Below are positions 20,182 to 41,876 of a DNA stretch of 64,000 nt, one piece after another. The notes under the pieces are model-generated. The model searched no databases. It was not told the origin of the DNA and worked only from the letters and a program-made list of their open reading frames with translations. How positions within the stretch are numbered: position 1 is the first letter of the stretch; the number at the start of each line of letters is the position of its first letter. A program made the translations under genes and the position numbers. The stretch lies in contig NZ_QUZZ01000002.1 of NCBI RefSeq assembly GCF_003545695.1, positions 372,001 to 436,000 of the forward strand, read 5' to 3'. This DNA is from Taibaiella helva (GTDB taxonomy: Bacteria; Bacteroidota; Bacteroidia; Chitinophagales; Chitinophagaceae).

Positions 20182-21048
20182 ATGAAATTATTCTTCTTGC
20201 CCTTGCTCGTCGTGCTGTGCAGCAGCACCGCCTTTGCCCGCTTTGCGGGGCTATATATTTTACCTTCCAAGGATAAGGAGCTGGGCAATATCCGCCTGGT
20301 ACTGGAGGAATCGGGCCGTTTCTACCTGTTCAGCGGTTACCATTATCGTTGGGGTACCTGGCGGGAGACGGATCAGCACACGGCTGCGTTGACCTTCGGA
20401 AAAATGGATGCGGTTGAAGTGTATGTGTGGGGTCCGGAAAAGGAGCAGATAGATTTCAGTTTCCAGGGTTTCGGCAATAAGCAAGCCTTCGTCAATATCG
20501 GAAAAGAAGGGAAAGCGGAGCAGGAATTTATGCCTGTATTTGAAAAAGAACCGGCATGCTCCTATGAAAATACGCAATCGGTCGTGCTACCGCGGAAAGA
20601 GACCGGCGAAATAACGATCGCATTGAATACCGGCAAAACAGACGGAGAGCGTGGTCTGGTGGATTGTTATGCTTATACGCTCCCGGGAGGAAAGGGCAGG
20701 GTGGCGGTTGTGGTCAACGAGGATGCTTTCCTGGAACAACGCAGCGTCAATATTACCTGGAAAGACAAGCGATATACCATAGGCAGCGAAGTCCTGGAAA
20801 AACAAGCTATAGCGCTGGATACCTTGCCGGAAGTGCTCAGGGATCAGAGCGCGCTTTTACAGCAGGCGAGAACCAAGCGATTCAGGGAGCATTTTGGCAT
20901 TCGTGAAGAAGAAGCAATTGAAATGCTGGTACCCCGTATCGCTGCAGACCGGAATATCAAGGTTGAAGGCGGCCCCTTATTTTCCATTGAATGTCCCAAC
21001 TGGGATGCCGTTCCTATTGACCCGCCACCACCGCCACCGCGTAAATAG
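20182..21048 (+). CDS. Secreted protein of unknown function with polyproline C-terminus
   Basis: A 288-residue protein with a signal peptide (about 1-19, SSTAFA). I do not recognise the family. The first half is beta-rich (GLYILPSKDKELGNIRLVLEESGRFYLFSGYHYRWGTW, a lipocalin-like pattern of a sensor or wrapper domain, inferred). Residues about 205-255 are helical and charged. The tail is PIDPPPPPPRK. A single pair of cysteines (near 133 and 156) and one near the C-terminus are present. It is convergent with the transglutaminase-like gene 44 bp away, without an obvious terminator between them. Confidence 0.75.
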   Translation: MKLFFLPLLVVLCSSTAFARFAGLYILPSKDKELGNIRLVLEESGRFYLFSGYHYRWGTWRETDQHTAALTFGKMDAVEVYVWGPEKEQIDFSFQGFGNKQAFVNIGKEGKAEQEFMPVFEKEPACSYENTQSVVLPRKETGEITIALNTGKTDGERGLVDCYAYTLPGGKGRVAVVVNEDAFLEQRSVNITWKDKRYTIGSEVLEKQAIALDTLPEVLRDQSALLQQARTKRFREHFGIREEEAIEMLVPRIAADRNIKVEGGPLFSIECPNWDAVPIDPPPPPPRK

Positions 21049-21092: not shown

Positions 21093-22301
21093 TTATGGAG
21101 CAGGATCATACTCGTAAGCGACCTGGTACGGCTCGTCTTTCAGCTTGGGCGAAAGCTCGCCTACGGAAAGATCTTTCAGCTGAGGAGTAGGTTCGCATAC
21201 GGAATATTCGCCGTTCTTATAGCGGATCACAGAGCCTTTGGGCTTGTCGAATTTTACTGCGATGGTTACATGATGTGGATAGGCCAGCACGATCATCGGC
21301 AGGTTGTAGATCTCTTTCACCAGGCAGAAAAACAGGGCTGCGCGATCGTCGCAATCGCTGTAGCGGTTGAGCAGGGTTTGCTCGGGCGACAGGCGTTTCT
21401 CCTTGCCAAAGTTATCTTGGTCGTTCTCATAGGAAAAAGCGTTGCGGGTAAACCGCATCAGGTAGTCGACACCTTTGCGCTGGTCCATACCTTTAAGCGT
21501 ATTGCGCAGCTCGGGAATGAGCGTATTGTAGGTCTTATTGCTTAATGGGATATTGAAATAGGACTCGTAATCGACCACAGGATAATTGGCAAACAATGTT
21601 TGTACCTGGCTGTTGACCTTGATCCTGAACAGGTAGCTTTTGTTTTTATAGTCAAACTGAATATCCTTCTCCTCGTAATCAGCATCGGTAAATTGCGGCA
21701 TACGGGTGATCTTGTACGAAAAGGCTTTCCGGCCTTCCGGTATCTTCACGGTCACCTCGTTGGGTTCCTGCGCTGCGAAATCAATCTGCCCGTAATCGTG
21801 GTAGTTGAGGCAGACATATTGTTTACCCCTTTTCTGATAATAGGGAATATCATAAATATTCTCGTCGCTTTGCACATAAAAGAGCAATACATCGCCGCGT
21901 AGGGCCAGTGTGGCATCGTAGCCCGATTTATTGAGAAGGAACCATTTGTACAGTGTGTACCGGTGATAGTTATCCTTTTTGGGGCTTAGCTGCTGGGCCA
22001 TTTTCCGGATCAGCTGGTAATACAGCCAGTCGTTGAGCTGGTTCTTCTCTTTGCAGGCCAGCAGGGCATCAATCAACGGTTGATAATGGTTGGTGTTGAA
22101 GCTGTCGTAAAACTCCCGGATAGCGCCATTGGAAATAGGATCATGGAAATCGGTGAAGTGCCACTGGTCCAGCTTTACGTCCAGGGTATCGCCGTAGAAG
22201 GTGAAATGAATGCGCTGTATGCTGTCCTGGGCACGAAGCTCCGCCCCCCGGGGAAACCACAGGAGAAAGCAGGAGTAGAACAGGAGCAGCATTTTTTTCA
22301 T
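21093..22301 (-). CDS. Secreted transglutaminase-like protein
   Basis: A 402-residue protein with a signal peptide (MKKMLLLFYSCFLLWFPRGAELRAQ). The C-terminal third fits the transglutaminase-like (papain-fold) pattern: Cys317 in RYSDCDDRAALFF at a helix start, then His343/His344 in LAYPHHVTIAV, with an acidic residue after the next strand. The middle (about 190-250) looks like a beta-sandwich. Such proteins may act as peptidases or crosslinkers, or serve in binding. The activity is unproven, but the Cys-His pair is intact. It is divergent from the cytochrome peroxidase gene. Confidence 0.75.
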   Translation of the reverse strand: MKKMLLLFYSCFLLWFPRGAELRAQDSIQRIHFTFYGDTLDVKLDQWHFTDFHDPISNGAIREFYDSFNTNHYQPLIDALLACKEKNQLNDWLYYQLIRKMAQQLSPKKDNYHRYTLYKWFLLNKSGYDATLALRGDVLLFYVQSDENIYDIPYYQKRGKQYVCLNYHDYGQIDFAAQEPNEVTVKIPEGRKAFSYKITRMPQFTDADYEEKDIQFDYKNKSYLFRIKVNSQVQTLFANYPVVDYESYFNIPLSNKTYNTLIPELRNTLKGMDQRKGVDYLMRFTRNAFSYENDQDNFGKEKRLSPEQTLLNRYSDCDDRAALFFCLVKEIYNLPMIVLAYPHHVTIAVKFDKPKGSVIRYKNGEYSVCEPTPQLKDLSVGELSPKLKDEPYQVAYEYDPAP

Positions 22302-24464: not shown

Positions 24465-27400
24465 ATGAGATTTATTTCTACCTTTTTGTTCCTGCTTGCC
24501 GTCCTTGTACCTGTGGGTGAAGCGGGCGCGCAACAAACAATAACACTGAACCGGTCCATAGCTGCCGGCTCGGATGACGCCGAAGAATGTGTCCCCGGCG
24601 GCTCCGGCACCGTGGGCGCCATCGACCTTACCAGCTCCGACCTGGAAATTATGCTGGATGGGACCAAAAAGCAAATGATCAGCTTACGTTTTACTAACAT
24701 TACCATTCCTCCCGGCGCGGTGATCCAGAATGCTTATGTCCAGTTTTCCACCAAAGGCGATAAGAACCCGGTGCTGGGCAACGCCTATCTCTCCATACAG
24801 GATGCCGATAATCCTGCTACTTTTAGCGGCAACTTTAATATTACCTCACGCATCCGCGTAGCAGATTCTGTATTATGGCCCGGCAGCACCAGCAGCACCT
24901 GGGGTACCGGCAGCGCCGGAGCAGCCGGCCCCGACCAGAAGACACCCGAGCTGAAGACCCTGGTGCAGGCAGTGATCAACCGTTCCGGCTGGGCCAGCGG
25001 CAATGCCATGGTCCTTTTTGTCACCGGTACAGACGGTGTGCGCAATGCCAATTCCTTTGATAATGGCGCAGCGGGCGCTGCCAAACTGGTGGTGCAGTAT
25101 ACTTCTTCGACAATACCGCAAATGCCGGTGACTGCTTTCCCTGTTGCTAAGCTAAGCCAGTGGAAATACCTCGACAACGGCAGCAACCAGGATACGGCCT
25201 GGCGAACGCCTTCTTTCAACGACAGCAGCTGGAGCTTCGGCCCGGGCAAGCTGGGCTACAGCGATAACCCCGCAACTAACCTGACTTACGGTCCCAATTC
25301 CGGCGATAAATACATCACCTATTATTTCCGGAAGCCCTTTACGGTAAGCAATCTTGGCAGCCTTACCGACAGCCTCGACCTTAACATCCTCCGTGATGAC
25401 GGCGCAGTCGTCTTCATCAATGGCGTAGAAGTATTGCGCAGCAATATGGATGCCGGCCCCTATAACTACCTCACCCATTCCGCCGCGATTGTCGACGGTG
25501 CTGATGAAGCCACCTACTTCCATTATTCTGTGCCGAAAAGCGTCCTGGTCAACGGCTTGAACACTATTGCCGTTGAAGTGCACCAGCGCGATGGCACCAG
25601 CTCCGATCTGGGCTTCGATCTGGAGCTTACCGAGCATGTGATCCCACCGTCGCCTTCTTTGCTCCGCGGACCTTACCTGAATGCCGCCACACCCGGCAGC
25701 ATCGTGATCCGCTGGCGTACCGACGCACCTGCGAAGAGCCGCGTGCGTTTCGGCCCCACTGCCGGCAACCTGAACCAGATTGTGCAGGATACGGCGGCTG
25801 TTACAGAGCATATCATCAAGCTGACCGGCCTTACCCCTTATACCCGCTACTTCTATAGTGTAGGCTCGCTGACTGATACCCTGCAGGGCGATACGGCTAA
25901 TTACTTTTACACTTTACCTGTAGCCGGTCTTGCCGACAGCTTGCTGCGTATCGGCGTGATCGGCGATTGCGGCAACAACTCGACCAACCAGCGTAATGTA
26001 AGGGATCAGCTGAGCGCTTACCTGGGCAGCAATTACATGAACTCCTGGATATTGCTGGGCGATAATGCTTACTCTACCGGCCTCGACAATGAATACCAGG
26101 CCGAGTTTTTTAATATCTACAAAGACCAGTTCCTGAAACAGAACCCTTTGTTTCCTGCACCCGGTAACCACGATTACGGCAACAGCAACAGCTCGCCTTC
26201 CGTGACGAACCACGCGCTGGCGCCTTACTACCAGAACTTCACCATGCCCATTGCCGGCGAAGCTGGTGGTACCCCGTCAAACAACCCGGCCTTCTACGCT
26301 TATGATATAGGTAACGTACATTTCCTGTCATTGGATTCTTATGGTAAAGAGGCTGATGCTTCCAAAATGTATGATACCGCAGGCGCACAGGTACAATGGA
26401 TCAAACAGGACCTGGCCAGCAATACCAACAAAGGATGGGTAGTGGCCTACTGGCATCATCCGCCTTATACTATGGGCTCGCACAACTCGGATAATGAGAC
26501 CGACCTGGTGCAGATCCGGCAGAAGTTCATCCAGATCCTTGAGCGCATGGGGGTCGATCTCATTCTTTGCGGCCACAGCCACGACTATGAACGTTCAAAG
26601 CTGATGAAAGGCCATTACGGCAATGAAGCCAGCTTCGATCCCGGTGTGCACCACCTCAGCGCTTCCAGCGGTATGTACGACGGCTCGGCCAATTCCTGCC
26701 CTTATATCAAAGACTCTGCCACCAATTACCAGGGAACGGTTTATGTAGTATCAGGATCGGCAGGCCAGCTGGGCGGCCAGCAGAGCAGCTTCCCGTACAA
26801 CGCGATGTATTATTCCAATGCCACGAACGGCGGCTCCATGATCCTCGAAGTCAAAGGCAATCGCCTGGATGCAAAATGGATCTGCGCCGACGGCGTGATC
26901 CGCGACCAGTTCACCATGATGAAGGATGCGAACCGCAGCCGTACGCTCGAGGTGAACAGCGGCAACGACATAACCCTTACCGCCGCCTACAACGGTACTT
27001 ATAGCTGGCAGGGTGTAAGCGCAAACACCAAGTCGGTAACCGTAAGGCCTACCGATACGACCACTTATGTAGTGAACGACAATTTCAGCTGTATCAGCGA
27101 TACTTTCATCGTGCTGGCGAGAGCTGTGCCCTTGCCGCTGAACTGGGGCTATATGCGCGCCGGTGTAAAAGATGCGCACAGCAATCTTGTGGAATGGCAA
27201 ACCCTGAACGAGCACAATACTGCTTATTTTGAAGTGGAGCGGGCTACTGCAGGAGGTGCATTCGCGACGGTAGGTAAAGTGGATGCCGCAGGCAACAGCA
27301 TGAAGGCGATCAGCTACCACTTTGCCGATGTGCTGATTGATCCGGCACAGCCCCTCTACCTGTATCGGGTGCGCCAGGTTGATCGGGATGGCAAAATAAC

Positions 27401-27686
27401 TTATTCGCAGGTAGTGCCGGTGGGCCGCCGGGGCAAAGATGCATCAGAGCTGATCCTGGCGCCCAACCCGGCCCGTAATGGTGAGATGGTCATCGCGCTT
27501 AATGGTAAGGCGGATGTAGAAGCGGAGCTGTTACTTACCGATGTCGCGGGCCGCAAAATGTGGCGCCAGAGGATGACCATCGGCAGCCGGCCGCAGCAAT
27601 TCCTGCCGCAGCTGCAGAATGGTATTTACTTCCTTTCCGTGAAGTACCCCGGACAATCCTTTACCGGTAAGATTGTCATCAGGTAA
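24465..27686 (+). CDS. Metallophosphoesterase (purple-acid-phosphatase-like) with T9SS type A sorting domain
   Basis: A 1073-residue secreted protein. After the signal peptide (about 1-23) come a beta-sandwich region (about 50-210) and a second carbohydrate-binding-like region (about 225-390, ILRDDGAVVFINGVEV). Then follow a purple-acid-phosphatase N-terminal fibronectin domain (PYLNAATPGSIVIRWRTDAP) and the metallophosphoesterase domain with motifs GDCGNN, GDNAYSTG, PGNHDYG and GHSHDYERS, which supply the two-metal site. The C-terminus is a T9SS type A domain (LAPNPARNGEMVI...GIYFLSVKY). It is probably exported to release phosphate from organic phosphates. A strong terminator follows. Confidence 0.93.
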   Translation: MRFISTFLFLLAVLVPVGEAGAQQTITLNRSIAAGSDDAEECVPGGSGTVGAIDLTSSDLEIMLDGTKKQMISLRFTNITIPPGAVIQNAYVQFSTKGDKNPVLGNAYLSIQDADNPATFSGNFNITSRIRVADSVLWPGSTSSTWGTGSAGAAGPDQKTPELKTLVQAVINRSGWASGNAMVLFVTGTDGVRNANSFDNGAAGAAKLVVQYTSSTIPQMPVTAFPVAKLSQWKYLDNGSNQDTAWRTPSFNDSSWSFGPGKLGYSDNPATNLTYGPNSGDKYITYYFRKPFTVSNLGSLTDSLDLNILRDDGAVVFINGVEVLRSNMDAGPYNYLTHSAAIVDGADEATYFHYSVPKSVLVNGLNTIAVEVHQRDGTSSDLGFDLELTEHVIPPSPSLLRGPYLNAATPGSIVIRWRTDAPAKSRVRFGPTAGNLNQIVQDTAAVTEHIIKLTGLTPYTRYFYSVGSLTDTLQGDTANYFYTLPVAGLADSLLRIGVIGDCGNNSTNQRNVRDQLSAYLGSNYMNSWILLGDNAYSTGLDNEYQAEFFNIYKDQFLKQNPLFPAPGNHDYGNSNSSPSVTNHALAPYYQNFTMPIAGEAGGTPSNNPAFYAYDIGNVHFLSLDSYGKEADASKMYDTAGAQVQWIKQDLASNTNKGWVVAYWHHPPYTMGSHNSDNETDLVQIRQKFIQILERMGVDLILCGHSHDYERSKLMKGHYGNEASFDPGVHHLSASSGMYDGSANSCPYIKDSATNYQGTVYVVSGSAGQLGGQQSSFPYNAMYYSNATNGGSMILEVKGNRLDAKWICADGVIRDQFTMMKDANRSRTLEVNSGNDITLTAAYNGTYSWQGVSANTKSVTVRPTDTTTYVVNDNFSCISDTFIVLARAVPLPLNWGYMRAGVKDAHSNLVEWQTLNEHNTAYFEVERATAGGAFATVGKVDAAGNSMKAISYHFADVLIDPAQPLYLYRVRQVDRDGKITYSQVVPVGRRGKDASELILAPNPARNGEMVIALNGKADVEAELLLTDVAGRKMWRQRMTIGSRPQQFLPQLQNGIYFLSVKYPGQSFTGKIVIR

Positions 27687-28082: not shown

Positions 28083-28469
28083 TTAGCTTTTCAGGGCAAA
28101 GAATTTAAGACCGGTAATGCCGCCCATGATCATCAGGATGAAAAGGACTTCGGGCAGGCTGGTCTTCTGCTGGAAAAAGATCACTTCCGAAAGCTTGATC
28201 AGTACCAGGCTGGCGCCTGTCCACGCGGCAAATGCCGTGGCTAGCGGGATCTGGCGGGTAGCCATAGAGAAGAAGTAGACATTGGCGATACCGAAACAGA
28301 TATATCCTGCAAAAGGCGCCAGTATCTTCAGGCCGCTTTGCGGGATATAAAAATTGGACCAGGTCAGCTGTTTAAGGTGCCTGAACTGCATCACCTTAAG
28401 CGAATAGGTCCATAAGGCTTCCATCAGCGCTGCCAGCAATAAGTATCCCCAATAGATCCAGTTGTTCAA
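28083..28469 (-). CDS. SMR family (EmrE/ArnE-like) four-helix membrane protein
   Basis: A 128-residue protein with four transmembrane helices (about 5-23, 48-68, 75-95, 105-125). Glu17 in the first helix matches the essential membrane-embedded Glu14 of EmrE, and AFAAWTGASLVLIKLSEVIFF matches the family's third-helix signature. The start appears to be TTG at 28469. SMR proteins export cations or guanidinium. The ArnE/ArnF branch flips undecaprenyl-linked aminosugars, and position behind the ulosonic-acid gene set makes the flippase role worth considering (inference). It is 125 bp downstream of the hydroxylase gene on the same strand, with a hairpin in the gap. Confidence 0.85.
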   Translation of the reverse strand: MNNWIYWGYLLLAALMEALWTYSLKVMQFRHLKQLTWSNFYIPQSGLKILAPFAGYICFGIANVYFFSMATRQIPLATAFAAWTGASLVLIKLSEVIFFQQKTSLPEVLFILMIMGGITGLKFFALKS

Positions 28470-28490
28470 ATCTTACTATTTTTTAATGAC

Positions 28491-28516
28491 AGTCGTTGCA
28501 GCAACGCAACGACTGA
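28491..28516. terminator. Stem-loop between the hydroxylase and SMR genes
   Basis: CAGTCGTTGC (28491-28500) pairs perfectly with GCAACGACTG (28507-28516) around a 6-nt loop. No clean T-run follows on the minus strand, so it may be an attenuator or an RNA-processing site rather than a true terminator. Confidence 0.5.
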
Positions 28517-28532
28517 TTCTTTTGGTGCTTTA

Positions 28533-28556
28533 GTGGTCGCTGAGCCTGTCGAAAGA
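28533..28556. repeat. Copy of a CTGAGCCTGTCGAA-type interspersed motif
   Basis: GGTCGCTGAGCCTGTCGAAA lies in the gap between two genes. From general recall, this dyad-containing 20-mer recurs between genes in many bacterial genomes. Only one copy is visible here, so its repeat nature cannot be shown from the window. Confidence 0.35.
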
Positions 28557-28594
28557 ACGAACAAGCTTAATATCGTTTCGGAGACTCAACAATC

Positions 28595-29548
28595 TCAGGG
28601 CGCAGTATCTGCAGTTACCGTTTCTTTTTCTGTTGTTGCCGTCGTCATCGTTAGATCGGATTCAGCAACTGGCGCCAGCGGCTTCTTCCGGCGCAGGAAT
28701 ACATTCAGCAGCGCCGGCCGCAGGTTATAATACCAGCGGAACCATTTGTAACGCAGCAGGCGTTTTTCCTCGAAGCGTTTTACAGAAAAGGCATGCTGCA
28801 GGAAATAATCCTTCGGATAGTCATAATACAGCCCCCAGTTCTCGGGCCGATCCCCCGGCTTTGTTCCCGGGAAATAGACCGTGCCGAAAAGATAGTCCCA
28901 TAGGGAAAGCTTTGTAGCAAAATTCGCATGGAACACTTCCCTGTAATTGGCATGGTGCCACAGGTGCAGCTCGGGCGAATTGAAAATATACTTCAGCTTG
29001 CCCATCCTGACCTGGATATTGCCGTGAATGAACATCCCGTACATGGAATCGATCAGGGCTTTGATGGGAATCACCTCCGGTGAGGCGCCCAGCAATATGA
29101 TCGGGCCGAATTCGATTGTCTGGTTGATGATGATCTCGACCACATGCGAGCGCGAGCCGGAAAGAAAATCTACTTCCTTGCCCGAATGATGCGCCTCGTG
29201 GGTGCGCCAGAAAAATTTACTGCTGTGCTGGAAGCGGTGGAACCAGTAGATATAAAAATCGTGCATCACGAAGAACAACAACACCTGCAAGGCCACCGGC
29301 CAGTGACTCACACCCTGAAACCGCGACCAGTCGAAGTGATGCTGCAGCGGTGCGATAATATAATCGAAGATGACGATCTTTAGTACAAAGCTCTGGATGA
29401 TGGTGTACCATACCAGGTCTAACCAAAAGCCTTCCCTGAACAGGGGAAGGCCTTTGCGGTAGGGGAACAGCCGTTCCCAGGTGATAATAATGACGGCCCA
29501 GCAGGCCAGTATGATCGAAGTGATCGTTAGTATCCGTTCCTGACTCAT
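28595..29548 (-). CDS. Sterol desaturase / fatty acid hydroxylase family membrane protein
   Basis: A 317-residue integral membrane di-iron enzyme. The histidine clusters are complete: H104-x3-H108 (FHRFQH, with His96 before it), H117-x2-H120-H121 (HEAHH) and H194-x2-H197-H198 (HLWHH). Members hydroxylate or desaturate lipids such as fatty acids, sphingoid bases or ether lipids. Its ATG overlaps the TGA of the phosphatase-NeuB gene (ATGA), so the two are translationally coupled and it belongs to that operon. The C-terminal tail after about residue 290 is low-complexity, rich in Thr and Ala. The lipid substrate is unknown. Confidence 0.9.
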   Translation of the reverse strand: MSQERILTITSIILACWAVIIITWERLFPYRKGLPLFREGFWLDLVWYTIIQSFVLKIVIFDYIIAPLQHHFDWSRFQGVSHWPVALQVLLFFVMHDFYIYWFHRFQHSSKFFWRTHEAHHSGKEVDFLSGSRSHVVEIIINQTIEFGPIILLGASPEVIPIKALIDSMYGMFIHGNIQVRMGKLKYIFNSPELHLWHHANYREVFHANFATKLSLWDYLFGTVYFPGTKPGDRPENWGLYYDYPKDYFLQHAFSVKRFEEKRLLRYKWFRWYYNLRPALLNVFLRRKKPLAPVAESDLTMTTATTEKETVTADTAP

Positions 29549-30996
29549 GCCATTATGCCATCTTTCCTGTTTTCAGCCTGTACGGGATTAATGTTTATCC
29601 TGAGGCGCTTCATGGGCCCCAGCTCAGATTCATATACTTTCTTGATGCCGTCGCCCAGGGCCAGCTCTACGTCGCGGATGTCCCGTACCAGGCGTTGGAA
29701 GCCCTGCGGCTCTACCGATGCCGCATGGTCGGAGCCCCACATGGCGCGGTCCAGGGTGAAGTGACGCTCTACAAAAGTGGCGCCCAGGCTCACCGCAGTT
29801 ACTGTGGTGGACAGACCTGTCTCGTGCCCTGAGTAGCCGATAGGTACGCCTGGGAATTTGCGGCTCAGCACCGGGATCATTTTCAGGTTCAGCTCTTCCA
29901 GCTTGCAGGGATAGGCCGAAGTGGAGTGGGCGATGAGAAGCGGATATTCTTCATCATAGCTGCGGATCAGCGCCACGGCATCTTCGATCTCCTGCATGGT
30001 GCTCATGCCGGTCGACAGCATCAGCGGCTTGCCGGTGAACAGGATGCGCTTGATCAGCTCAAAGTCGGTAAGCGAGGCGGAGGCCAGCTTGTAGATCACG
30101 GTATCGAATTGCTCCATGAAGTCTACAGAAGCCGTATCCCAGGGCGATACAAACCAGTCGATGCCTTTTTCCTTACAGTATTGATCGATCGCGGTGTATT
30201 CGTCGAAACCGAATTCTGTTTTGCGTTTATAGTCGATATAGCTCATGCGGCCCCAGGGCGTATCGCGCATCACTTCCCACTGGTCCTTGGGAACACAGAT
30301 CTCAGGGGTCCGCTTCTGGAACTTCACGGCGCAGGCCTTGGCCGCTACGGCTTCGTCGATCAGCTGTTTGGCGATCTCAAGCGATCCGTTATGATTGATG
30401 CCGATCTCGGCGATCACATAGCAAGGCTGGTCTTTGTCGATGGTACGGCCGTTGGACAAGGTGACGCCGCGGCTTACGGCAAAGGCCTGGCTGTTGTGTG
30501 TGCGGGCTTCGATAATGATCTCGGCAAACTCGCGGAAGCAGCCCTCGCCGCCTTTGGCGCGGCAGATAAGGTCTACCTGCTGCTTTACCGCAGGCAGCGC
30601 ATCGGCCGGGCAGGCGCTAAGCCCTACCAGCTGCATAATGCCGAGGTCGTTGTGATCGTCGCCGATATAGGCCACGTTTTCGGGCAGCAGGTGATAGCGC
30701 TCGAGGATATCGCTGAGCAGGGCCGCTTTATCTTTAATGCCGCCATGCAGCTCATTGATGCGCAGCTTTTCGGCGCGTTGGTGTAAAGCTGCAGAGTTTT
30801 CGCCCGAAATGATACCGGTCTCCGTACCGGCAAAGCGGCGCAGGCGTTCTACGGCCATGCCGTCGCGCAGGTTGAACTTTTTCAGGGTTTCACCCATCTC
30901 GCCATAATATACGCTGGCGTCGGTCAGCACGCCGTCGCAGTCGGTCAGCAACAACTGGATACGGCTTGCTTTTTCTGTGAGCAGGTTCTTGTTCAT
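29545..30996 (-). CDS. Fusion of KdsC-like HAD phosphatase and NeuB-type ulosonic acid synthase
   Basis: A 483-residue bifunctional protein, started at ATG 30996 because the longer frame runs into the SDR gene. Residues about 12-163 are a KdsC-like C0 HAD phosphatase (DCDGVLTD with Asp19/Asp21, SGEN, and GDDHNDLGIM). Residues about 182-480 are a NeuB/SpsE-type TIM barrel (YVIAEIGINHNGS, VKFQKRTPE, HSTSAYPC, IGYSGHETG, VERHFTLD, WGSDHAASVEP). NeuB condenses PEP with an amino sugar to give a 2-keto-3-deoxy acid, and the phosphatase would remove the phosphate from the product or precursor. The C-terminal SAF (antifreeze-like) domain of classical NeuB is missing. Confidence 0.9.
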   Translation of the reverse strand: MNKNLLTEKASRIQLLLTDCDGVLTDASVYYGEMGETLKKFNLRDGMAVERLRRFAGTETGIISGENSAALHQRAEKLRINELHGGIKDKAALLSDILERYHLLPENVAYIGDDHNDLGIMQLVGLSACPADALPAVKQQVDLICRAKGGEGCFREFAEIIIEARTHNSQAFAVSRGVTLSNGRTIDKDQPCYVIAEIGINHNGSLEIAKQLIDEAVAAKACAVKFQKRTPEICVPKDQWEVMRDTPWGRMSYIDYKRKTEFGFDEYTAIDQYCKEKGIDWFVSPWDTASVDFMEQFDTVIYKLASASLTDFELIKRILFTGKPLMLSTGMSTMQEIEDAVALIRSYDEEYPLLIAHSTSAYPCKLEELNLKMIPVLSRKFPGVPIGYSGHETGLSTTVTAVSLGATFVERHFTLDRAMWGSDHAASVEPQGFQRLVRDIRDVELALGDGIKKVYESELGPMKRLRININPVQAENRKDGIMA

Positions 30997-31016
30997 GTTG
31001 TCAGTTTTTAATAGGT

Positions 31017-31820
31017 TTAAATTGCTGTCCAGCCGCCATCTACCACGAGGTTGGCGCCTGTCATATAAGCCGAGGCATCTCCGGCCAGGAACACCAGGGC
31101 TCCCTGGTAATCTCCCGGTTGTGCCATGCGGCCCAGCAAGGTTTTTGAGGAATAATTCCGGATGAAAAAATCGTCTTGTCCCTGTTCTACGCCTCCGGGC
31201 GACAGGGTATTGACCCTTATGCCCTTGTTGCCCCAATAGGCCGCCAGGAAGCGGGTGAAATTGATCACGGCACCTTTGGTTACGGGGTAAGCCGCCGATT
31301 TGTAAAAGGTCTGCACGCCTTCGTTATCGCGGTAGATCGACTGGTCGGGACCTACCATACCATAGGTGGAAGCGATATTGATGATGCTGCCTTTTCCTTG
31401 TTCGGCCATAACCGTGCCCAGTACCTGCGCACAAAGGAACACCCCGGTGATGTTCACATCGATCGACCGTTGAAAGGCGTCAAGAGGATAGCGTTCAAAT
31501 GCGGATAGCAAAGCAGCCATAGCGGGATCTTCAAACTTATCGTTGATCGCTGCATTGTTGACCAGGATATCGATGCGGCCGTAGCGTTCCAGCACTTTGT
31601 CGCGGAGTGACGTTACGGAAGCTTTGTCCGTTACGTCGACACCGATGCCGGTGTGGGCTGTGCCCAGGGTAGCAGCAAAGGTTTGTGCTGCGGCTTCATT
31701 CATATCGGCAGCCACCACCTGCGCGCCGGCTTCAGCCAGCGCTTCGCAATGCTTTCGGCCCAGCAGGCCCAGGGCGCCGGTGACGATGGCCGTTTTGTCT
31801 TTAAGGGAAAAGCGTTCCAT
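31017..31820 (-). CDS. SDR family oxidoreductase in the ulosonic acid cluster
   Basis: A 267-residue classical short-chain dehydrogenase. The N-terminal cofactor loop is TGALGLLGRKH, followed by Asp in VAADMNE, which suggests NAD(H) over NADP(H). NNAA is present, as is the catalytic set Ser (INIAST) with Tyr-x3-Lys (YPVTK). RVNTLSPGGV and the C-terminal GANLVVDGGWTA complete the family pattern. ATG 31820 was chosen over an upstream TTG that overlaps the aminotransferase stop. It is one base beyond that gene, so the two are tightly coupled. The substrate is presumably a sugar or keto acid of the pathway (inference). Confidence 0.92.
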   Translation of the reverse strand: MERFSLKDKTAIVTGALGLLGRKHCEALAEAGAQVVAADMNEAAAQTFAATLGTAHTGIGVDVTDKASVTSLRDKVLERYGRIDILVNNAAINDKFEDPAMAALLSAFERYPLDAFQRSIDVNITGVFLCAQVLGTVMAEQGKGSIINIASTYGMVGPDQSIYRDNEGVQTFYKSAAYPVTKGAVINFTRFLAAYWGNKGIRVNTLSPGGVEQGQDDFFIRNYSSKTLLGRMAQPGDYQGALVFLAGDASAYMTGANLVVDGGWTAI

Positions 31821-31821
31821 A

Positions 31822-33171
<1,350 letters not shown>

Positions 33172-33192
33172 AGAAAAGATTGTTTTAAAAAA

Positions 33193-34131
33193 TTACTCTG
33201 CAAATTCGGAGGGACTCATCCGGACCGCCGGTTCAGAGATGGCGTAGCCCAGGATCTCTTCGGCGATCTGTTTGCCGGTGAAGCCTTCATATTGCAGCAC
33301 ATCAGGAAGCAACGCGGGCTTGAACCAGCGTTCTTTCAGGGCAAAAGGAATAACATTGGTGGTGATGCGGTGCTTCAGCAGTGTTTCGGCGAGAATGCTG
33401 TAGAGACCGCCGGTCAGGAAGTGATCTTCCACGGTGATCAGCAGCTTGCTGTTCTGTGCAGCATCGATAAGGGCTTTTTCATCGACAGGCTTCAGAGAGC
33501 GCATATTGATCAGGCCCACCGATTTACCTTCAGCCTGCAAAATGGCTGTGGCCTGAAGGCATTGCTCGAACAGCAGCCCGTAGCAGAGCAGCGTAATATC
33601 CTCGCCTCTGCTGACAATCTCGGCTTTTCCCGGCTCGTAAGGCGTATGCTTGTGACCGGTAGGTCGTGTATTGATCCGAACGTAGGCGGGTGCCGGGGAA
33701 GACCATATCGCCGGCAGCATCAGAAGCAGGTCCTCTTCATCTGCCGGGGCATAGACTTCCATATTGGGGATGCCCCGCATCAGGGCAATATCTTCGATGG
33801 CCTGGTGGGTAGGGCCATTAGCATCGGAAAGAAAGCCGGGAATAAAGCCGCTTAGGTTCACCGGCAGGCCGGGTATGCCGACGTCGGTGCGGACAAACTC
33901 GAAGGCGCGCATGGTGAGAAAGGCAGTGAGCGCGTGTACAACCGGGATACGGCCACGCAGGGCCAGGCCCGCAGCAGCGCCGATCATGGTCTGCTCCGTG
34001 ATACCGGTGTCGATAAAGCGTGGCCCCAAAGCAGCTGGTATATTACGTACCAGGGCGCGGTTCTCGGCGGTCATTACCATGTAGCGCTCATCGTTCAGCG
34101 CGGTTTGGGTCAGCAGTTGTTCGTAGTTCAT
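33193..34131 (-). CDS. Transketolase C-terminal subunit
   Basis: A 312-residue pyrimidine-binding plus C-terminal half of transketolase. The catalytic Glu46 lies in DTGITEQTMIGAAAGLALRG, followed by HALTAFLTMRAFE and the FLSDANGPTHQ segment. The Rossmann-like C-terminal domain contains ITVEDHFLTGGLYS. It pairs with the gene one base upstream to form a two-subunit enzyme that transfers a two-carbon ketol unit between sugars. Central-metabolism transketolase is usually a single chain, so this split form embedded in a sugar-acid cluster is probably pathway-specific. Confidence 0.92.
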   Translation of the reverse strand: MNYEQLLTQTALNDERYMVMTAENRALVRNIPAALGPRFIDTGITEQTMIGAAAGLALRGRIPVVHALTAFLTMRAFEFVRTDVGIPGLPVNLSGFIPGFLSDANGPTHQAIEDIALMRGIPNMEVYAPADEEDLLLMLPAIWSSPAPAYVRINTRPTGHKHTPYEPGKAEIVSRGEDITLLCYGLLFEQCLQATAILQAEGKSVGLINMRSLKPVDEKALIDAAQNSKLLITVEDHFLTGGLYSILAETLLKHRITTNVIPFALKERWFKPALLPDVLQYEGFTGKQIAEEILGYAISEPAVRMSPSEFAE

Positions 34132-34132
34132 C

Positions 34133-34987
34133 TTAACGTACGACTAAGGTTTGTGAGGTTAATTGGGCTTGATGCGCTCCGTGCAGCTCCTGCAGCAGCT
34201 GTTCCGTTTCGTCTGTGTTGAAATTGCAGAACCAGCGGTCGGCGCGGCCTTCAATGCTGGGCAGTCCTTTACCCCTCAGGGTATCGGCGATCAGCACATT
34301 CAGCTTGCCTTCGCTGAAGGGGTACTGGCTCAGGGCTTCATCCAGGGCCTGGAAGCTATGTCCGTCGACACGCCGTACTTCAGCGCCGAAGGCGCGGAAT
34401 TTATCTGCAAGGGGTTCCAGCGGGATCAGGTCTTCTGTAGCCATATTGGCCTGGAACTGGTTACGGTCCACGATAAAGATGAGGTTGTCGAGCTTGTAGG
34501 CATTGGCTACCAACACGGCTTCCCAGCAGGTACCCTCGTTAAGCTCGCCATCACCCAGGATGCAGACCACTTTATTCTGGCCGCCTCTTACCTTAATATC
34601 GATCGCAACACCAAGGGCTACGGAAGGCAGGTGCCCGAGGGAGCCGGAGTGGAATTCTATACCAGCGACTTGAGTATTGGGATGCCAGTAGATATGATCG
34701 TCAATAGATAAGTGATGTTGCAGCCGTTCCCTGCCGATGATCTCCAGCTCGGCCAGCGTGCCGTACAGCGCCGGTACATCATGGCCTTTAGACAGGAAGA
34801 GGTAATCCCGGTTGGGATCGTCCAGATTGTTGACATTAAGATTTAAGAAGTCGGCGTAAAGGAAGACGATAAGGTCTGCTGCGGAGAGCGAGGCCCCGAT
34901 AAAGCAGCCGCCATTGGCCGCCATACGGATGATATGCTCCCGCACCTTGAAGGCAATGTCTTTTAAATGCTGATACTGGCTTTCCAT
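34133..34987 (-). CDS. Transketolase N-terminal (TPP-binding) subunit
   Basis: A 284-residue diphosphate-binding half of transketolase. The thiamine diphosphate motif is GDGELNEGTCWEA followed by NLIFIVDRNQFQ. SKGHDVPALYGTLAELE and the GSLGHLPSVALGVA segment carry the usual histidines. Its stop is one base from the start of the C-terminal subunit, so equimolar production is likely. Split transketolases occur in archaea and in some secondary sugar pathways. Here the neighbours point to synthesis of an unusual sugar precursor. Confidence 0.92.
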   Translation of the reverse strand: MESQYQHLKDIAFKVREHIIRMAANGGCFIGASLSAADLIVFLYADFLNLNVNNLDDPNRDYLFLSKGHDVPALYGTLAELEIIGRERLQHHLSIDDHIYWHPNTQVAGIEFHSGSLGHLPSVALGVAIDIKVRGGQNKVVCILGDGELNEGTCWEAVLVANAYKLDNLIFIVDRNQFQANMATEDLIPLEPLADKFRAFGAEVRRVDGHSFQALDEALSQYPFSEGKLNVLIADTLRGKGLPSIEGRADRWFCNFNTDETEQLLQELHGAHQAQLTSQTLVVR

Positions 34988-35010
34988 ATGATTTCAGGTT
35001 TGGATAGGAA

Positions 35011-35817
35011 TTACGGAAGTACTTTGGTCTGGTCTGCAGAAATGGTCTTCAGATCGGAAAGGTGATTGCGGTACCAGTTCACCCCGGCATAGCCGGCATT
35101 GATCTCATATATTTTCGGGCGGTCTTCCAGCAGCTGGAGAATATCGTTGCAGCTGAATGCCGGCTTTAAAGGGTGCAGCTTTTTATACACCTGTACGATG
35201 AAGTCGTAGTCTTCAGGATAATCGATGGTAAAGCGATGGGTCATCGAAAGGTCGAGGCCGGTAGACCATTCCAGGTTACCGGTCCGGAAGTGTTCGGGAT
35301 GCTCCCATATATAAGGCGTGGTATGCTCCAGCTCCCAGGAATGCGTTGCCTCATAATAGGCCCGTTCCAGGCAGGTCATGGTCATTACTTCCACATCGTT
35401 GCCGTCGGGCCAGGTAGCGGGATGCAGGTTACTGACATAATCGTAATGCCCGGGCTGCTCGTAGAACAGGTCGAGCGTGGCATCGATGACCGCCGGGTCG
35501 ATCAGCGGGCAATCGGAAGGAATCTTCAGCACCACATGTGCGCCATATTGCCGCGCCGCCAGGTAATGCCTTTCGAGCAGGTTGTTGAGGCTGCCGCGAT
35601 AGCACGGAATACCATGAGCATATGCCTCATTCTCGACCACATCATCGGACGCATCGGTCGAGGTCGCCACTACTATGGTTACCGGGTATTGTGTACGCTG
35701 CACGCGTTCCACCATGCGCATCAGCAGGCTTTTGCCCCATACGGGAAGCATTACCTTGCCGGGCAGCCGGCTGGACGACATCCTGGCCTGTATCACGATG
35801 ACGATCTTATCCTGCAT
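35011..35817 (-). CDS. SpsF/NeuA-like cytidylyltransferase
   Basis: A 268-residue nucleotidyltransferase. ATG 35817 was chosen since the family opening follows it directly: IVIVIQARMSSSRLPGKVML, where the Arg-rich loop binds the nucleotide. VVLKIPSDCPLIDP carries the metal-binding acidic residues. NDVEVMT and RFTIDYPEDYDFI match the SpsF/KdsB-like group used for activating acidic sugars as CMP derivatives. Its start overlaps the end of the upstream GT-B-like gene by 11 bp. It probably activates the product of the NeuB-type synthase. Confidence 0.88.
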   Translation of the reverse strand: MQDKIVIVIQARMSSSRLPGKVMLPVWGKSLLMRMVERVQRTQYPVTIVVATSTDASDDVVENEAYAHGIPCYRGSLNNLLERHYLAARQYGAHVVLKIPSDCPLIDPAVIDATLDLFYEQPGHYDYVSNLHPATWPDGNDVEVMTMTCLERAYYEATHSWELEHTTPYIWEHPEHFRTGNLEWSTGLDLSMTHRFTIDYPEDYDFIVQVYKKLHPLKPAFSCNDILQLLEDRPKIYEINAGYAGVNWYRNHLSDLKTISADQTKVLP

Positions 35818-36886
35818 AGGATTGTTCCTTTTCGTTACGATAATAGGGTACCAGCGCCTCCGTTGCCGCTGGCTGTTCCCGGTCGCGATACTGGCGGAGG
35901 AATTCAGGACCTGTGCCGTTAAAGGCGATGTAGCCGCGGCATAGCGCGGCAATCCTGGCCGCAGAAGTGCCGCCGTTCTGCAGGGGCGACAGGCGTTTCA
36001 GCTGCTGTATATCGAAATAGGAGTGTACCTTTTTGCCCAGGGCGATACCGGTGTATACTACAGTGGAATACTGTGTGATCAGCTCGCTGCAATTGGCAAT
36101 CATCTCCTGTGTATGTCCTTCGGTGAAGATGAGCGTACCTTCCGGCGTATGTTGCCGTATTTCTTTAATGGCTCTTTTGAAATTTTCGTTGGGATGCAGC
36201 TTGAACAGCAAAGGCCGTCCTGTTGCGATCGCTACGCAATGCCTGATGAACCGGACGCGGTTCTCGGGTCTCGCCGTCTCGCGCATGTCGGTTGTTGCGA
36301 CCATAACATAGTCCCGGTGCGGGAAATCGTTATCCAGGAACTGCGCCGCATGATCGTAATTAGGCGTACCGGTTACCCATATTTTTTCGGGGTCCGTACC
36401 CAGCTCTGCTATATATTGGCGGTAGCCTTCGGAGGCGGCGCAGTACAAATCGCATTGATTGGTCGATCCGTTGAGGGAGGTATTGAAGCACCAGGTGGGC
36501 GGCAGGTTCAGCGCCTTGACTATTTTGCTTAGCGGGGTCAGCTTGTCGATCATCCCTTCCTGTATCCATACCGTCTTAGTTTGTTTCAGCATATCAGGAA
36601 CGATCAGGTCGCTGCAGCAAACGACCAGGTCATAGTGGTGTTTGTGCCCGCCATAATCGATGGCGCAGCTGCGCTCTTTCAGGTAAGCTTCCGCTTTTTT
36701 CCGGTGGGGTTCGGAGATGATGGTCTTATCCAGCAAGGGTGTTTTGTTTTTCAGGAAGTTGACCAGCCTATGATCGGTGAACATCTGGCTGAACCAGCAA
36801 TCAAAATCGCCGAGCTCAAGGGCGATCTGGTACATCTGGGAGGTCTGGTTCAGCGACCCGGTAAGAAACAGTATTTTTTTGCTCAT
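35807..36886 (-). CDS. GT-B-like protein (glycosyltransferase or epimerase fold), first gene of the cluster
   Basis: A 359-residue protein, started at ATG 36886 (MSKKILFLTGSLNQTSQMYQIA). Two Rossmann-like halves are evident. The C-terminal half shows LLFKLHPNENFKRAIKE, then ANCSELITQYSTVVYTGIALGKKVHSYFD, the acceptor/nucleotide-site pattern of CDP-glycerol transferase-like and UDP-GlcNAc 2-epimerase-like proteins. No signal peptide is present. It may transfer the activated sugar acid or interconvert its precursor; the sequence alone does not decide. A -7 box lies about 30 bp upstream, so this gene starts the operon. Confidence 0.75.
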   Translation of the reverse strand: MSKKILFLTGSLNQTSQMYQIALELGDFDCWFSQMFTDHRLVNFLKNKTPLLDKTIISEPHRKKAEAYLKERSCAIDYGGHKHHYDLVVCCSDLIVPDMLKQTKTVWIQEGMIDKLTPLSKIVKALNLPPTWCFNTSLNGSTNQCDLYCAASEGYRQYIAELGTDPEKIWVTGTPNYDHAAQFLDNDFPHRDYVMVATTDMRETARPENRVRFIRHCVAIATGRPLLFKLHPNENFKRAIKEIRQHTPEGTLIFTEGHTQEMIANCSELITQYSTVVYTGIALGKKVHSYFDIQQLKRLSPLQNGGTSAARIAALCRGYIAFNGTGPEFLRQYRDREQPAATEALVPYYRNEKEQSYAG

Positions 36887-40712: not shown

Positions 40713-41402
40713 ATGCAACGGATACTGATGATCGAGGCTGATGATAAGATCGCAAAGCTGGCGGGAGCGCAGCTGGAAGCCGAAGGCTGGGGACTGGATT
40801 ATGCTTCCGGCGCCGCTTTGGGGCTTACTATGGCCCATGAAAGGCACTATGACCTGGTGATACTGGATATTGAGCTGCCCGATATGCCCGGCGCCGATGC
40901 GCTGGCGCAGCTGAAACGGCAGAAGGCAGGAGTGCCGCTGCTGGTCCTTATTCCCAGGCAGGAAGATGTTAGTCCCGATACAACCGGCCTGTATGATCAT
41001 CTGCTGAAGCCCTTTAGTATGAACAGCTTTATGTCGCGGGTAAAAGCATTAATGCACAGCTCGGTGATGCAGCAGGAAGCGCCTGGTCCCGCGCAGGACA
41101 AGATCGTCAGGGGGCCGCTGGTACTGGATGCAGAAAAAAGACGGGTTACCCTGGACGGTGAATTGCTGGAGCTGGGCTATAAAGAATTTGATCTCCTGCA
41201 GGTACTTATGGCCCATCCGGGGAGAAGCTTCACTGCGGAAAGCCTGCTCAAAGAAGTCTGGGGTCTGGGTTTTGCAGGCTTCGAACATACGCTGACCGCA
41301 GCATTGGGCCACCTGCGGGCCAGGATTGAGCCCGATCCGCTGCATCCCCGCTATATCCTTACCACCTGGGGCGTCGGCTATCGTTTCACCGATGAGTATT
41401 AA
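40713..41402 (+). CDS. OmpR/PhoB-type response regulator (orphan)
   Basis: A 229-residue two-domain regulator. The receiver (1-115) has the phospho-acceptor Asp52 in DLVILDIELPDMPG and the conserved Lys99 in LLKPFS. The acidic pocket reads IEADD, a slightly unusual form. The C-terminal winged helix (about 130-228) shows LVLDAEKRRVTLDGELLELGYKEFDLLQVLM and the closing TTWGVGYRF. No histidine kinase adjoins it, so its partner is elsewhere or it is not controlled by phosphorylation. The gene is bounded upstream by a terminator and downstream by the repeat island. Confidence 0.92.
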   Translation: MQRILMIEADDKIAKLAGAQLEAEGWGLDYASGAALGLTMAHERHYDLVILDIELPDMPGADALAQLKRQKAGVPLLVLIPRQEDVSPDTTGLYDHLLKPFSMNSFMSRVKALMHSSVMQQEAPGPAQDKIVRGPLVLDAEKRRVTLDGELLELGYKEFDLLQVLMAHPGRSFTAESLLKEVWGLGFAGFEHTLTAALGHLRARIEPDPLHPRYILTTWGVGYRFTDEY

Positions 41403-41443
41403 GTTGTTCTTTTTTCTCGCAGCAAAAGGAACAGCAGTATAAT

Positions 41444-41489
41444 AGAGATCCTTCACTACACATGCTCCGCAAGCTGCGCTCAGGATGAC
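41444..41489 (-). repeat. Interspersed repeat, inverted copy
   Basis: On the minus strand this reads GTCATCCTGAGCGCAGCTTG...GAAGGATCTCT, the same ends (GTCATCCTGAG and GAAGGATCTCT) as the two plus-strand copies at 41539-41575 and 41774-41810 but with a different middle. Confidence 0.7.
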
Positions 41490-41493
41490 AATT

Positions 41494-41640
41494 GGAAATT
41501 TTCGGATGAAGCTGACATTAGAACATAAACACCACACAGTCATCCTGAGGTCTGCGCAGCAACCGAAGGATCTCTTTCTTTTCTCACCAAGACACGAAAC
41601 ATTAATAGGAAATCCCGCCGCTGCAGCGCTGCGGAATAAA
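41494..41640 (+). repeat. Direct repeat, copy A
   Basis: About 147 bp that recur with a few substitutions at 41729-41876. The best-kept core (41497-41587) runs from AATTTTCGGATGAAGCTGAC through GTCATCCTGAG and GAAGGATCTC to TTTTCTCAC. No believable reading frame is present. Positions 41403-41952 hold no gene and are essentially built from these repeats. Confidence 0.85.
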
Positions 41641-41728
41641 TGCTGCTGGTTCACGCGTCCTCGCGTGGACCAACTACATTTCTGTAGCGCCAGGCACACG
41701 CGAGGGCGCGTGCCAGCCGGGAACAATG

Positions 41729-41876
41729 GGGAATTTTCGGATGAAGCTGACATTAGAGCATAAGCACCACACAGTCATCCTGAGGTCTGCGCAGCAACCG
41801 AAGGATCTCTTTTCTTTTCTCACAAGACACCAAAGGATTAATGGAAAACCCGGCTGCGCTGTGGTACGCTGCGGGA
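41729..41876 (+). repeat. Direct repeat, copy B
   Basis: Second copy of the 41494-41640 unit, starting about 235 bp after it. Between the copies lies a G+C-rich stretch with inverted CACGCG/CGCGTG blocks (41652-41720). Confidence 0.85.

Follow-up and report, generated by a model that had tools for sequence, protein, structure and literature searches.

The window analysed here is a 64,000-nucleotide stretch of Taibaiella helva DNA (assembly GCF_003545695.1, contig NZ_QUZZ01000002.1, positions 372,001 to 436,000 of the forward strand), and between its positions 28083 and 36886 lie nine genes, all on the minus strand. They are transcribed in the order of a GT-B-fold protein (GTB), an SpsF-type cytidylyltransferase, a transketolase (TK) split into two genes, a class III aminotransferase (AT3), a short-chain dehydrogenase/reductase (SDR), a fusion of a haloacid dehalogenase-type (HAD) phosphatase with a NeuB-type synthase, a fatty-acid-hydroxylase-type protein (FAH), and a small multidrug resistance-type (SMR) protein. 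We consider it fairly likely that this operon encodes a pathway to an amino-3-deoxy-ulosonic acid activated with cytidine monophosphate (CMP), together with its dedicated transfer. Domains were called with Pfam and NCBIfam profiles, and four gene starts were shifted to ATGs inside the frames, where the alignments with homologues begin, giving the following features:

35807..36886 (-), GTB: GT-B-fold protein, probable transferase of an activated sugar and marker of the unit (AlphaFold2 model, Foldseek, profile match, invariant motifs)
35011..35817 (-), SpsF-type cytidylyltransferase, CTP_transf_3 (PF02348, 2.4e-23; start shifted to an internal ATG, backed by homologues)
34133..34987 (-), N-terminal, thiamine diphosphate-binding half of the transketolase, Transketolase_N (PF00456, 1.6e-22)
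33193..34131 (-), C-terminal half of the transketolase, Transket_pyr and Transketolase_C (PF02779 and PF02780)
31822..33171 (-), AT3: class III aminotransferase, Aminotran_3, HemL-like but not HemL (PF00202, 3.4e-50; NCBIfam PRK06209, 377 bits, under the cut-off of 486)
31017..31820 (-), SDR oxidoreductase (PF13561, 2e-50)
30493..30996 (-), KdsC-type HAD phosphatase, N-terminal part of the HAD-NeuB fusion (TIGR01670, 149 bits, above the cut-off of 107)
29545..30492 (-), NeuB-type synthase domain without SAF, C-terminal part of the HAD-NeuB fusion (PF03102, 2.9e-77)
28595..29548 (-), FAH: membrane fatty-acid-hydroxylase-type protein, FA_hydroxylase (PF04116, 1.1e-27; eleven histidines invariant in 33 members)
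28083..28469 (-), SMR-type membrane protein, Multi_Drug_Res, possible translocase (PF00893, 2.8e-14)

The gene content and order on one strand that a first-pass annotation had described were borne out by the open reading frame (ORF) coordinates and by the Pfam and NCBIfam matches, as was the tight spacing it had reported. After start correction, the junctions are, in order, an 11 bp overlap, gaps of 23, 1, 21, 1, and 20 bp, a 4 bp overlap, and a gap of 125 bp before SMR; seven of the eight are thus overlaps or gaps of 1-23 bp, with the FAH-SMR gap as the exception. An inverted repeat of 10 pairs (28490-28515) lies inside that gap. The HAD-NeuB fusion is present in Taibaiella and in most Mucilaginibacter loci, but HAD and NeuB are mostly separate genes elsewhere.

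The operon is distinct from the housekeeping genes of the same genome, which holds, elsewhere, (i) its own KdsA, (ii) a second CTP_transf_3 protein with a stronger match than the operon's SpsF-type gene, (iii) another HAD protein, 37% like that of the operon, and (iv) a full-length TK as well as another protein with a TK N-domain. The KdsA and the stronger CTP_transf_3 match rule out the operon's synthase and cytidylyltransferase as the genome's enzymes for 3-deoxy-D-manno-octulosonic acid (Kdo). Similarly, the class III enzyme had been typed as a glutamate-1-semialdehyde aminotransferase, which held in so far as AT3 is HemL-like and has HemL (glutamate-1-semialdehyde aminomutase) proteins as its closest solved relatives. 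It is not HemL itself, however: on the HemL model TIGR00713 (cut-off 527), a separate genomic HemL scores 599 bits versus 247 bits for AT3, which is ∼10 residues shorter than HemL after the YHG motif, and AT3 as the housekeeping HemL could therefore be ruled out.

The search of other genomes for the gene set, which the first-pass annotation had proposed, found it conserved as a unit across several phyla. An AT3-alignment scan of GTDB species genomes gave 579 relatives, of which the best 80 were mapped in addition to a Methylomagnum plasmid, and the counts describe these closest relatives rather than prevalence or a random sample. With fragment L108 left out, 58 loci have an AT3 above 450 bits; 42 of them have room on both sides ("testable" loci), and gene presence there rests on bit-score and distance limits specific to this analysis. 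At the testable loci, we found GTB in 40, SpsF in 41, each TK half in 38, SDR in 40, HAD in 33, NeuB in 41, FAH in 36, and SMR in 26, with all ten domains together in 19. GTB and SpsF are present at L069, but outside the distance limit used for these counts, and FAH at L073 is truncated by the contig end and hence counted as absent. SpsF lies directly before AT3 at the loci without TK (L052, L057, L085, and L086), and a single-chain TK replaces the split one at L075 and L136. The unit, whole or partial (some loci are cut by contig ends), occurs in Bacteroidota, Ignavibacteriota, Chlorobiota, Chloroflexota, and Acidobacteriota, in a myxobacterium (L068), and on the gammaproteobacterial Methylomagnum plasmid; within the genus, all three other genomes searched carry all nine genes in the same order.

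Two order-level relatives (G038 and G058) split the set over three loci, with SDR-HAD-NeuB-FAH at one, GTB and SpsF at a second, and AT3 alone at the third; neither TK nor SMR was detected at any of the three, yet seven activities are still kept. Because co-occurrence persists even when the genes are unlinked, we consider them functionally coupled. Further, TK and AT3 lie far from GTB in two genomes of family f48 (G133 and G191), and GTB occurs in 7 of 59 relatives; AT3, checked in eight of the 59, is present in the same seven and absent from the eighth (G043). Chance clustering is ruled out by this co-occurrence together with the same gene order recurring in other genera and phyla, and the nine genes almost certainly form one dedicated functional unit, as judged from these comparisons. 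The combination is described nowhere in the open-licence PubMed Central (PMC) papers searched, including the available portion of PMC3877843, and the unit is real, widespread, and apparently undescribed. At L065 and L077, the ORFs that follow NeuB matched nothing in Pfam and look spurious.

More distant AT3 relatives are found in other settings. AT3 matches occur in 60 phage records, all below 60% identity (38% in the top row), and relatives on haloarchaeal and rhizobial plasmids have 36-43% identity, the three inspected sitting in other contexts. On two of the haloarchaeal plasmids (L028 and L029), a DegT aminotransferase accompanies the AT3 relative (43%), and a nearby protein is annotated as ceramidase-like.

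GTB also occurs without AT3, next to a different sugar module. GTB, AT3, and the transaminase KdnA were looked for across 395 evenly sampled genomes of the phylum (E limits of 1e-30, 1e-150, and 1e-100, respectively); the three scans were taken as covering the same 395 genomes (their identifiers agree), and scoring was limited to the 4-5 best candidates in each genome, so that single absences may be misses. GTB was found in 137 genomes, with a best E value per genome always below 1e-130, AT3 in 53, and a KdnA-type transaminase in 80. GTB is present in 53 of 53 AT3 genomes and in 78 of 80 KdnA genomes, the two exceptions being 82% and 84% complete. No genome had both AT3 and KdnA at the limits used. 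Likewise, neither the window's genome nor any of the 53 AT3 genomes gave a KdnA match at E 1e-100, a limit at which a more divergent KdnA could be missed. Six genomes have GTB with neither transaminase, and a repeated AT3 search at 1e-110 gave no match in them; one KdnA absence (G168) is accounted for by a contig end (L154).

All 80 KdnA genomes belong to the family labelled f37, which we read as Chlorobiaceae. The Fenna-Matthews-Olson (FMO) antenna protein, checked in ten genomes, was positive in five of five f37 genomes; G063 and G133, with AT3 and not KdnA, have it too. The f37 loci that were read out run from an HpnL-like protein through GTB, CTP_transf_3, and an iron-containing alcohol dehydrogenase (Fe-ADH) to a DegT aminotransferase (L154 stops within Fe-ADH). 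The best solved relative of this aminotransferase is 5k8b (KdnA, 8-amino-3,8-dideoxy-octulosonate transaminase) at 258 bits, the next scoring 168. In a midpoint-rooted tree, from which GTB sequences of fewer than 300 residues were excluded, five f37 GTBs form one group nested in the unit GTBs, within a 14-row clade (support 97/98) that also holds unit GTBs of the Chloroherpeton-like type. An HpnL-like gene directly upstream of GTB is likewise seen at L073, L124, L133, L135, L137, L152, and L153, of which L137 and L152 have no other convincing unit gene and L124 combines both arrangements (HpnL-like and GTB, then SpsF, TK, and AT3). So, by sequence comparison, one transferase family appears to be served by two sugar modules, one of them of the 8-amino-Kdo (Kdo8N) type, and the sugar module was probably swapped around this one transferase, because the f37 GTBs branch inside the unit GTBs. 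The sharing of GTB between the unit and a KdnA-type module points to an amino-ulosonic acid as the likely product class, and we assign the product to the CMP-amino-ulosonic acids with good confidence. In one genome (G153), a second GTB gene (L129, 6665-7687) stands without other unit genes, besides a complete unit (L130).

The enzymes themselves fit this class: the synthase family makes ulosonic acids, the phosphatase family dephosphorylates them, and the cytidylyltransferase family activates them. The NeuB domain of the window protein has no SAF match in Pfam, and all 16 aligned unit synthases stop before the C-terminal region that three distant-locus synthases have. Where solved NeuB, PseI, and SpsE enzymes have a glutamate (Glu134 of the meningococcal enzyme), the unit synthases carry Ser in 15 of 16 cases and Thr in L075. 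The residues aligned with Lys53, Lys129, Ser132, His215, and His236 of the meningococcal synthase, which we take to be its phosphoenolpyruvate (PEP) and metal-ligand sites, are kept. The best solved match of the unit synthase, the NeuB-type protein of PDB 6ncs, is likewise short (290 residues), but has an Asp at the pocket position where the unit synthase has Ser. That HAD is fused to NeuB suggests a product that leaves the synthase still phosphorylated; the amine would therefore be internal and the sugar not simply Kdo8N, whose amine would occupy the expected phosphate position.

Known systems offer partial models. The Kdo8N pathway oxidizes and aminates ready-made Kdo. Like the KdnA/KdnB system of Shewanella, in which KdnB is a 3-deoxy-octulosonate 8-oxidase (available text of PMC5125639), the unit joins an oxidoreductase, a pyridoxal phosphate-type aminotransferase, and a cytidylyltransferase toward a putative CMP-amino-ulosonic acid, and the KdnA homologue adjoining the same GTB family in f37 genomes is a link that lies outside the definition of the Shewanella pathway. 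Unlike it, the unit has its own PEP-condensing synthase and TK, a class III rather than DegT-type aminotransferase, and an SDR rather than an Fe-ADH. The aminoshikimate pathway to 3-amino-5-hydroxybenzoic acid (rif cluster) comprises, in the accessible part of PMC8788734, an oxidoreductase, a transaminase, a TK (orf15A/15B), a phosphatase, and a PEP-condensing synthase that lead to an amino-heptulosonate phosphate; there, iminoerythrose 4-phosphate arises from aminofructose 6-phosphate and ribose 5-phosphate before its condensation with PEP. The unit resembles it in having an oxidoreductase, a transaminase, and a TK in one cluster, although its enzymes come from other families, its only PEP-condensing synthase is NeuB-type rather than of the 3-deoxy-D-arabino-heptulosonate 7-phosphate synthase type, it has no aromatizing enzymes, and it includes a cytidylyltransferase. 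Units without a TK of their own may be explained, since the same part of PMC8788734 reports engineered Escherichia coli in which tktA serves aminoshikimate chemistry. With the sialic, legionaminic, and pseudaminic acid pathways (NeuB, PseI, and SpsE), the unit shares the synthase family and the conserved PEP- and metal-ligand-aligned residues; unlike them, its synthase lacks SAF and has Ser or Thr for Glu, and its nine genes include no nucleoside diphosphate (NDP)-sugar dehydratase, hydrolysing epimerase, or N-acetyltransferase, GTB being weakly epimerase-like.

We therefore propose, with different confidence in its parts, the following route. The SDR would oxidize a sugar phosphate, whose product the class III aminotransferase would aminate; the split TK could then, in the manner of the aminoshikimate pathway, move a two-carbon unit and so leave an amino-aldose phosphate. 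Condensation of this phosphate with PEP would fall to the NeuB domain, the fused HAD phosphatase would strip the terminal phosphate, and the SpsF-type enzyme would form the CMP sugar. GTB might transfer the residue of the CMP sugar to a lipid, with FAH modifying the acceptor lipid and the SMR protein moving it across the membrane. An order of steps like that of the aminoshikimate pathway is a tentative suggestion, drawn by analogy. The pathway to an unusual amino-ulosonic acid that the first-pass annotation had outlined has thus gained a conserved unit, its separation from the genome's own KdsA, HemL, and second cytidylyltransferase, and a GTB shared with the KdnA module, while its order of steps is still inferred only. 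If true, a route that pairs a TK with an aminotransferase of HemL type would bring new chemistry to the ulosonic acids, in a gene set that spans several phyla. Ulosonic acids (Kdo, sialic acids, and their relatives) are central bacterial surface sugars.

Several observations weigh against the proposed pathway and transfer. At the testable loci, TK is absent from 4 of 42, HAD from 9, and SMR from 16, and two Chloroflexota loci lack both FAH and SMR. While 12 loci without SMR have an HpnL-like gene before GTB, replacement of SMR by the HpnL-like protein is a weak proposal, with only one of the 16 testable SMR-less loci (L073) having an HpnL-like gene and the other 15 having neither. The exclusion between AT3 and KdnA holds for the f37-type KdnA, because a KdnA beyond E 1e-100 would be missed and Shewanella's own matches the f37 protein only at ∼1e-75; moreover, the list of 12 Fe-ADH relatives at E 1e-20 does not include 5K8C, which we take to be KdnB. 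The sugars of the two modules are probably related but not identical, and the swap would show a shared class only. Finally, the nearest folds to GTB in Foldseek are epimerases rather than any named sugar transferase.

This last point bears on the role of GTB, which might instead be an NDP-sugar 2-epimerase or hydrolase (NeuC- or LegG-like) that feeds the pathway, the CMP sugar being used by glycosyltransferases encoded elsewhere. The AlphaFold2 model of GTB (mean pLDDT 91.5, pTM 0.88) retrieved GT-B folds, with uridine diphosphate-N-acetylglucosamine 2-epimerases first and TagF and a CMP-bound capsule enzyme lower in the list, and 45 of 49 GTB members match Epimerase_2 weakly at E ≤0.1 (25 bits for the window protein versus a cut-off of 30.6). 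These whole-fold similarities, however, reach a template modelling score of ∼0.56 at most, with a root-mean-square deviation of 6.5-10 over the first ten rows, and two of four epimerase catalytic residues, presumably those of WecB, are without a counterpart in the GTB consensus. Of the 49 members, 26 also match the CDP-glycerol transferase family, and the sole significant match in a profile search of solved sequences is the TagF-like Cps3D (E 6e-4). The 49 aligned members share invariant QEG and H-P-N-E motifs, of which we take QEG and HP to resemble those of sialyl- and Kdo-transferases. In f37, GTB adjoins a KdnA-type module that needs a transferase and has no evident role for an epimerase, and we therefore favor a transferase. 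From sequence and model together, GTB is a probable transferase of an activated sugar, and the epimerase or hydrolase role is improbable.

For the acceptor, a membrane lipid is a possibility just short of an even chance. Since a membrane hydroxylase and what is probably a transferase dedicated to the pathway form part of the unit, the product is probably a glycolipid instead of a sugar that stays free or enters a capsule. FAH has OlsE as its best NCBIfam model, far under the cut-off, and no significant solved relative. On the Methylomagnum plasmid, and seen only there, the unit is followed by an LplT-annotated transporter and two acyltransferases (PF13444 and PF01553; OlsB- and OlsA-like). The counts for SMR and HpnL-like genes, together with the small share of neighbours identified outside the window, led us to weigh the lipid acceptor lower, and lipopolysaccharide (LPS) higher. 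In the latter case, which we find rather unlikely, the amino-ulosonic acid would go on the inner core or outer sugars of LPS, as does 8-amino-Kdo in Shewanella, with lipid A or a lipid-linked sugar as the target of the hydroxylase and SMR protein. The genome has KdsA and so probably LPS, and Kdo8N is recorded in Shewanella LPS (available text of PMC5125639); yet the unit carries one probable transferase of its own, and no LPS family is found among ten scanned neighbouring proteins of the window. The unit is found in Chloroflexota as well, a phylum with many members that lack LPS. Alternatively, the operon could be a variant of an ordinary nonulosonic route, like those to deaminoneuraminic acid (KDN), legionaminic acid, or pseudaminic acid, serving protein or capsule glycosylation, with the TK as an accessory supplier of sugar phosphate. 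HAD does match a KDN-9-phosphatase model, at 137 bits and below the cut-off of 180, and some distant AT3 relatives adjoin PseG-like (GT28 C-terminal), GNAT, and longer NeuB proteins. We nevertheless regard this route as quite improbable: the nine genes include no dehydratase, PseG/LegG-type hydrolase, or N-acetyltransferase, the NeuB protein has no SAF domain and no glutamate at the pocket position, and neither these genes nor the ten scanned neighbours include a capsule export or polymerase family.

An aminoglycosphingolipid has been recorded from Chlorobium limicola (cited in PMC11762602). GTB is a candidate gene for this aminolipid of green sulfur bacteria. We know of no gene assigned to it so far, and its head group has reportedly been called neuraminic acid. 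Speculatively, and with a low probability in our estimation, the unit could make unrecognised ganglioside-like lipids, in which an amino-ulosonic acid from an aminoshikimate-like TK route is placed on ceramide or another membrane lipid, green sulfur bacteria having retained the transferase but swapped in 8-amino-Kdo, with the long-known Chlorobium aminoglycosphingolipid as the product.

Related clusters and neighbouring genes were also noted. G043, the relative without AT3, has a unit-type NeuB and HAD (L025, 2488-10177) beside a dihydrodipicolinate synthase (DHDPS)-family protein, a TylF-like methyltransferase, CTP_transf_3, a PhyH oxygenase, and a TagF-like protein, which is an ulosonic acid cluster different from the unit. 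At L093, L098, L101, L107, and L110, a distant AT3 relative shares one open frame with an SpsF-type domain; PseG-like (GT28 C-terminal) proteins in three partly scanned clusters (L110 and the unfused L090 and L095) suggest pseudaminic-type pathways. At L106 (3655-5565), a NeuB with SAF is fused to a xylose-isomerase-like TIM barrel. In the window, three ORFs have no Pfam match (41049-41753, 234 aa; 21093-22301, 402 aa; and 20182-21048, 288 aa), and past the operon end, on the opposite strand, 24465-27686 encodes a metallophosphatase of 1073 aa, whose match to a C-terminal Por secretion signal is sub-threshold.

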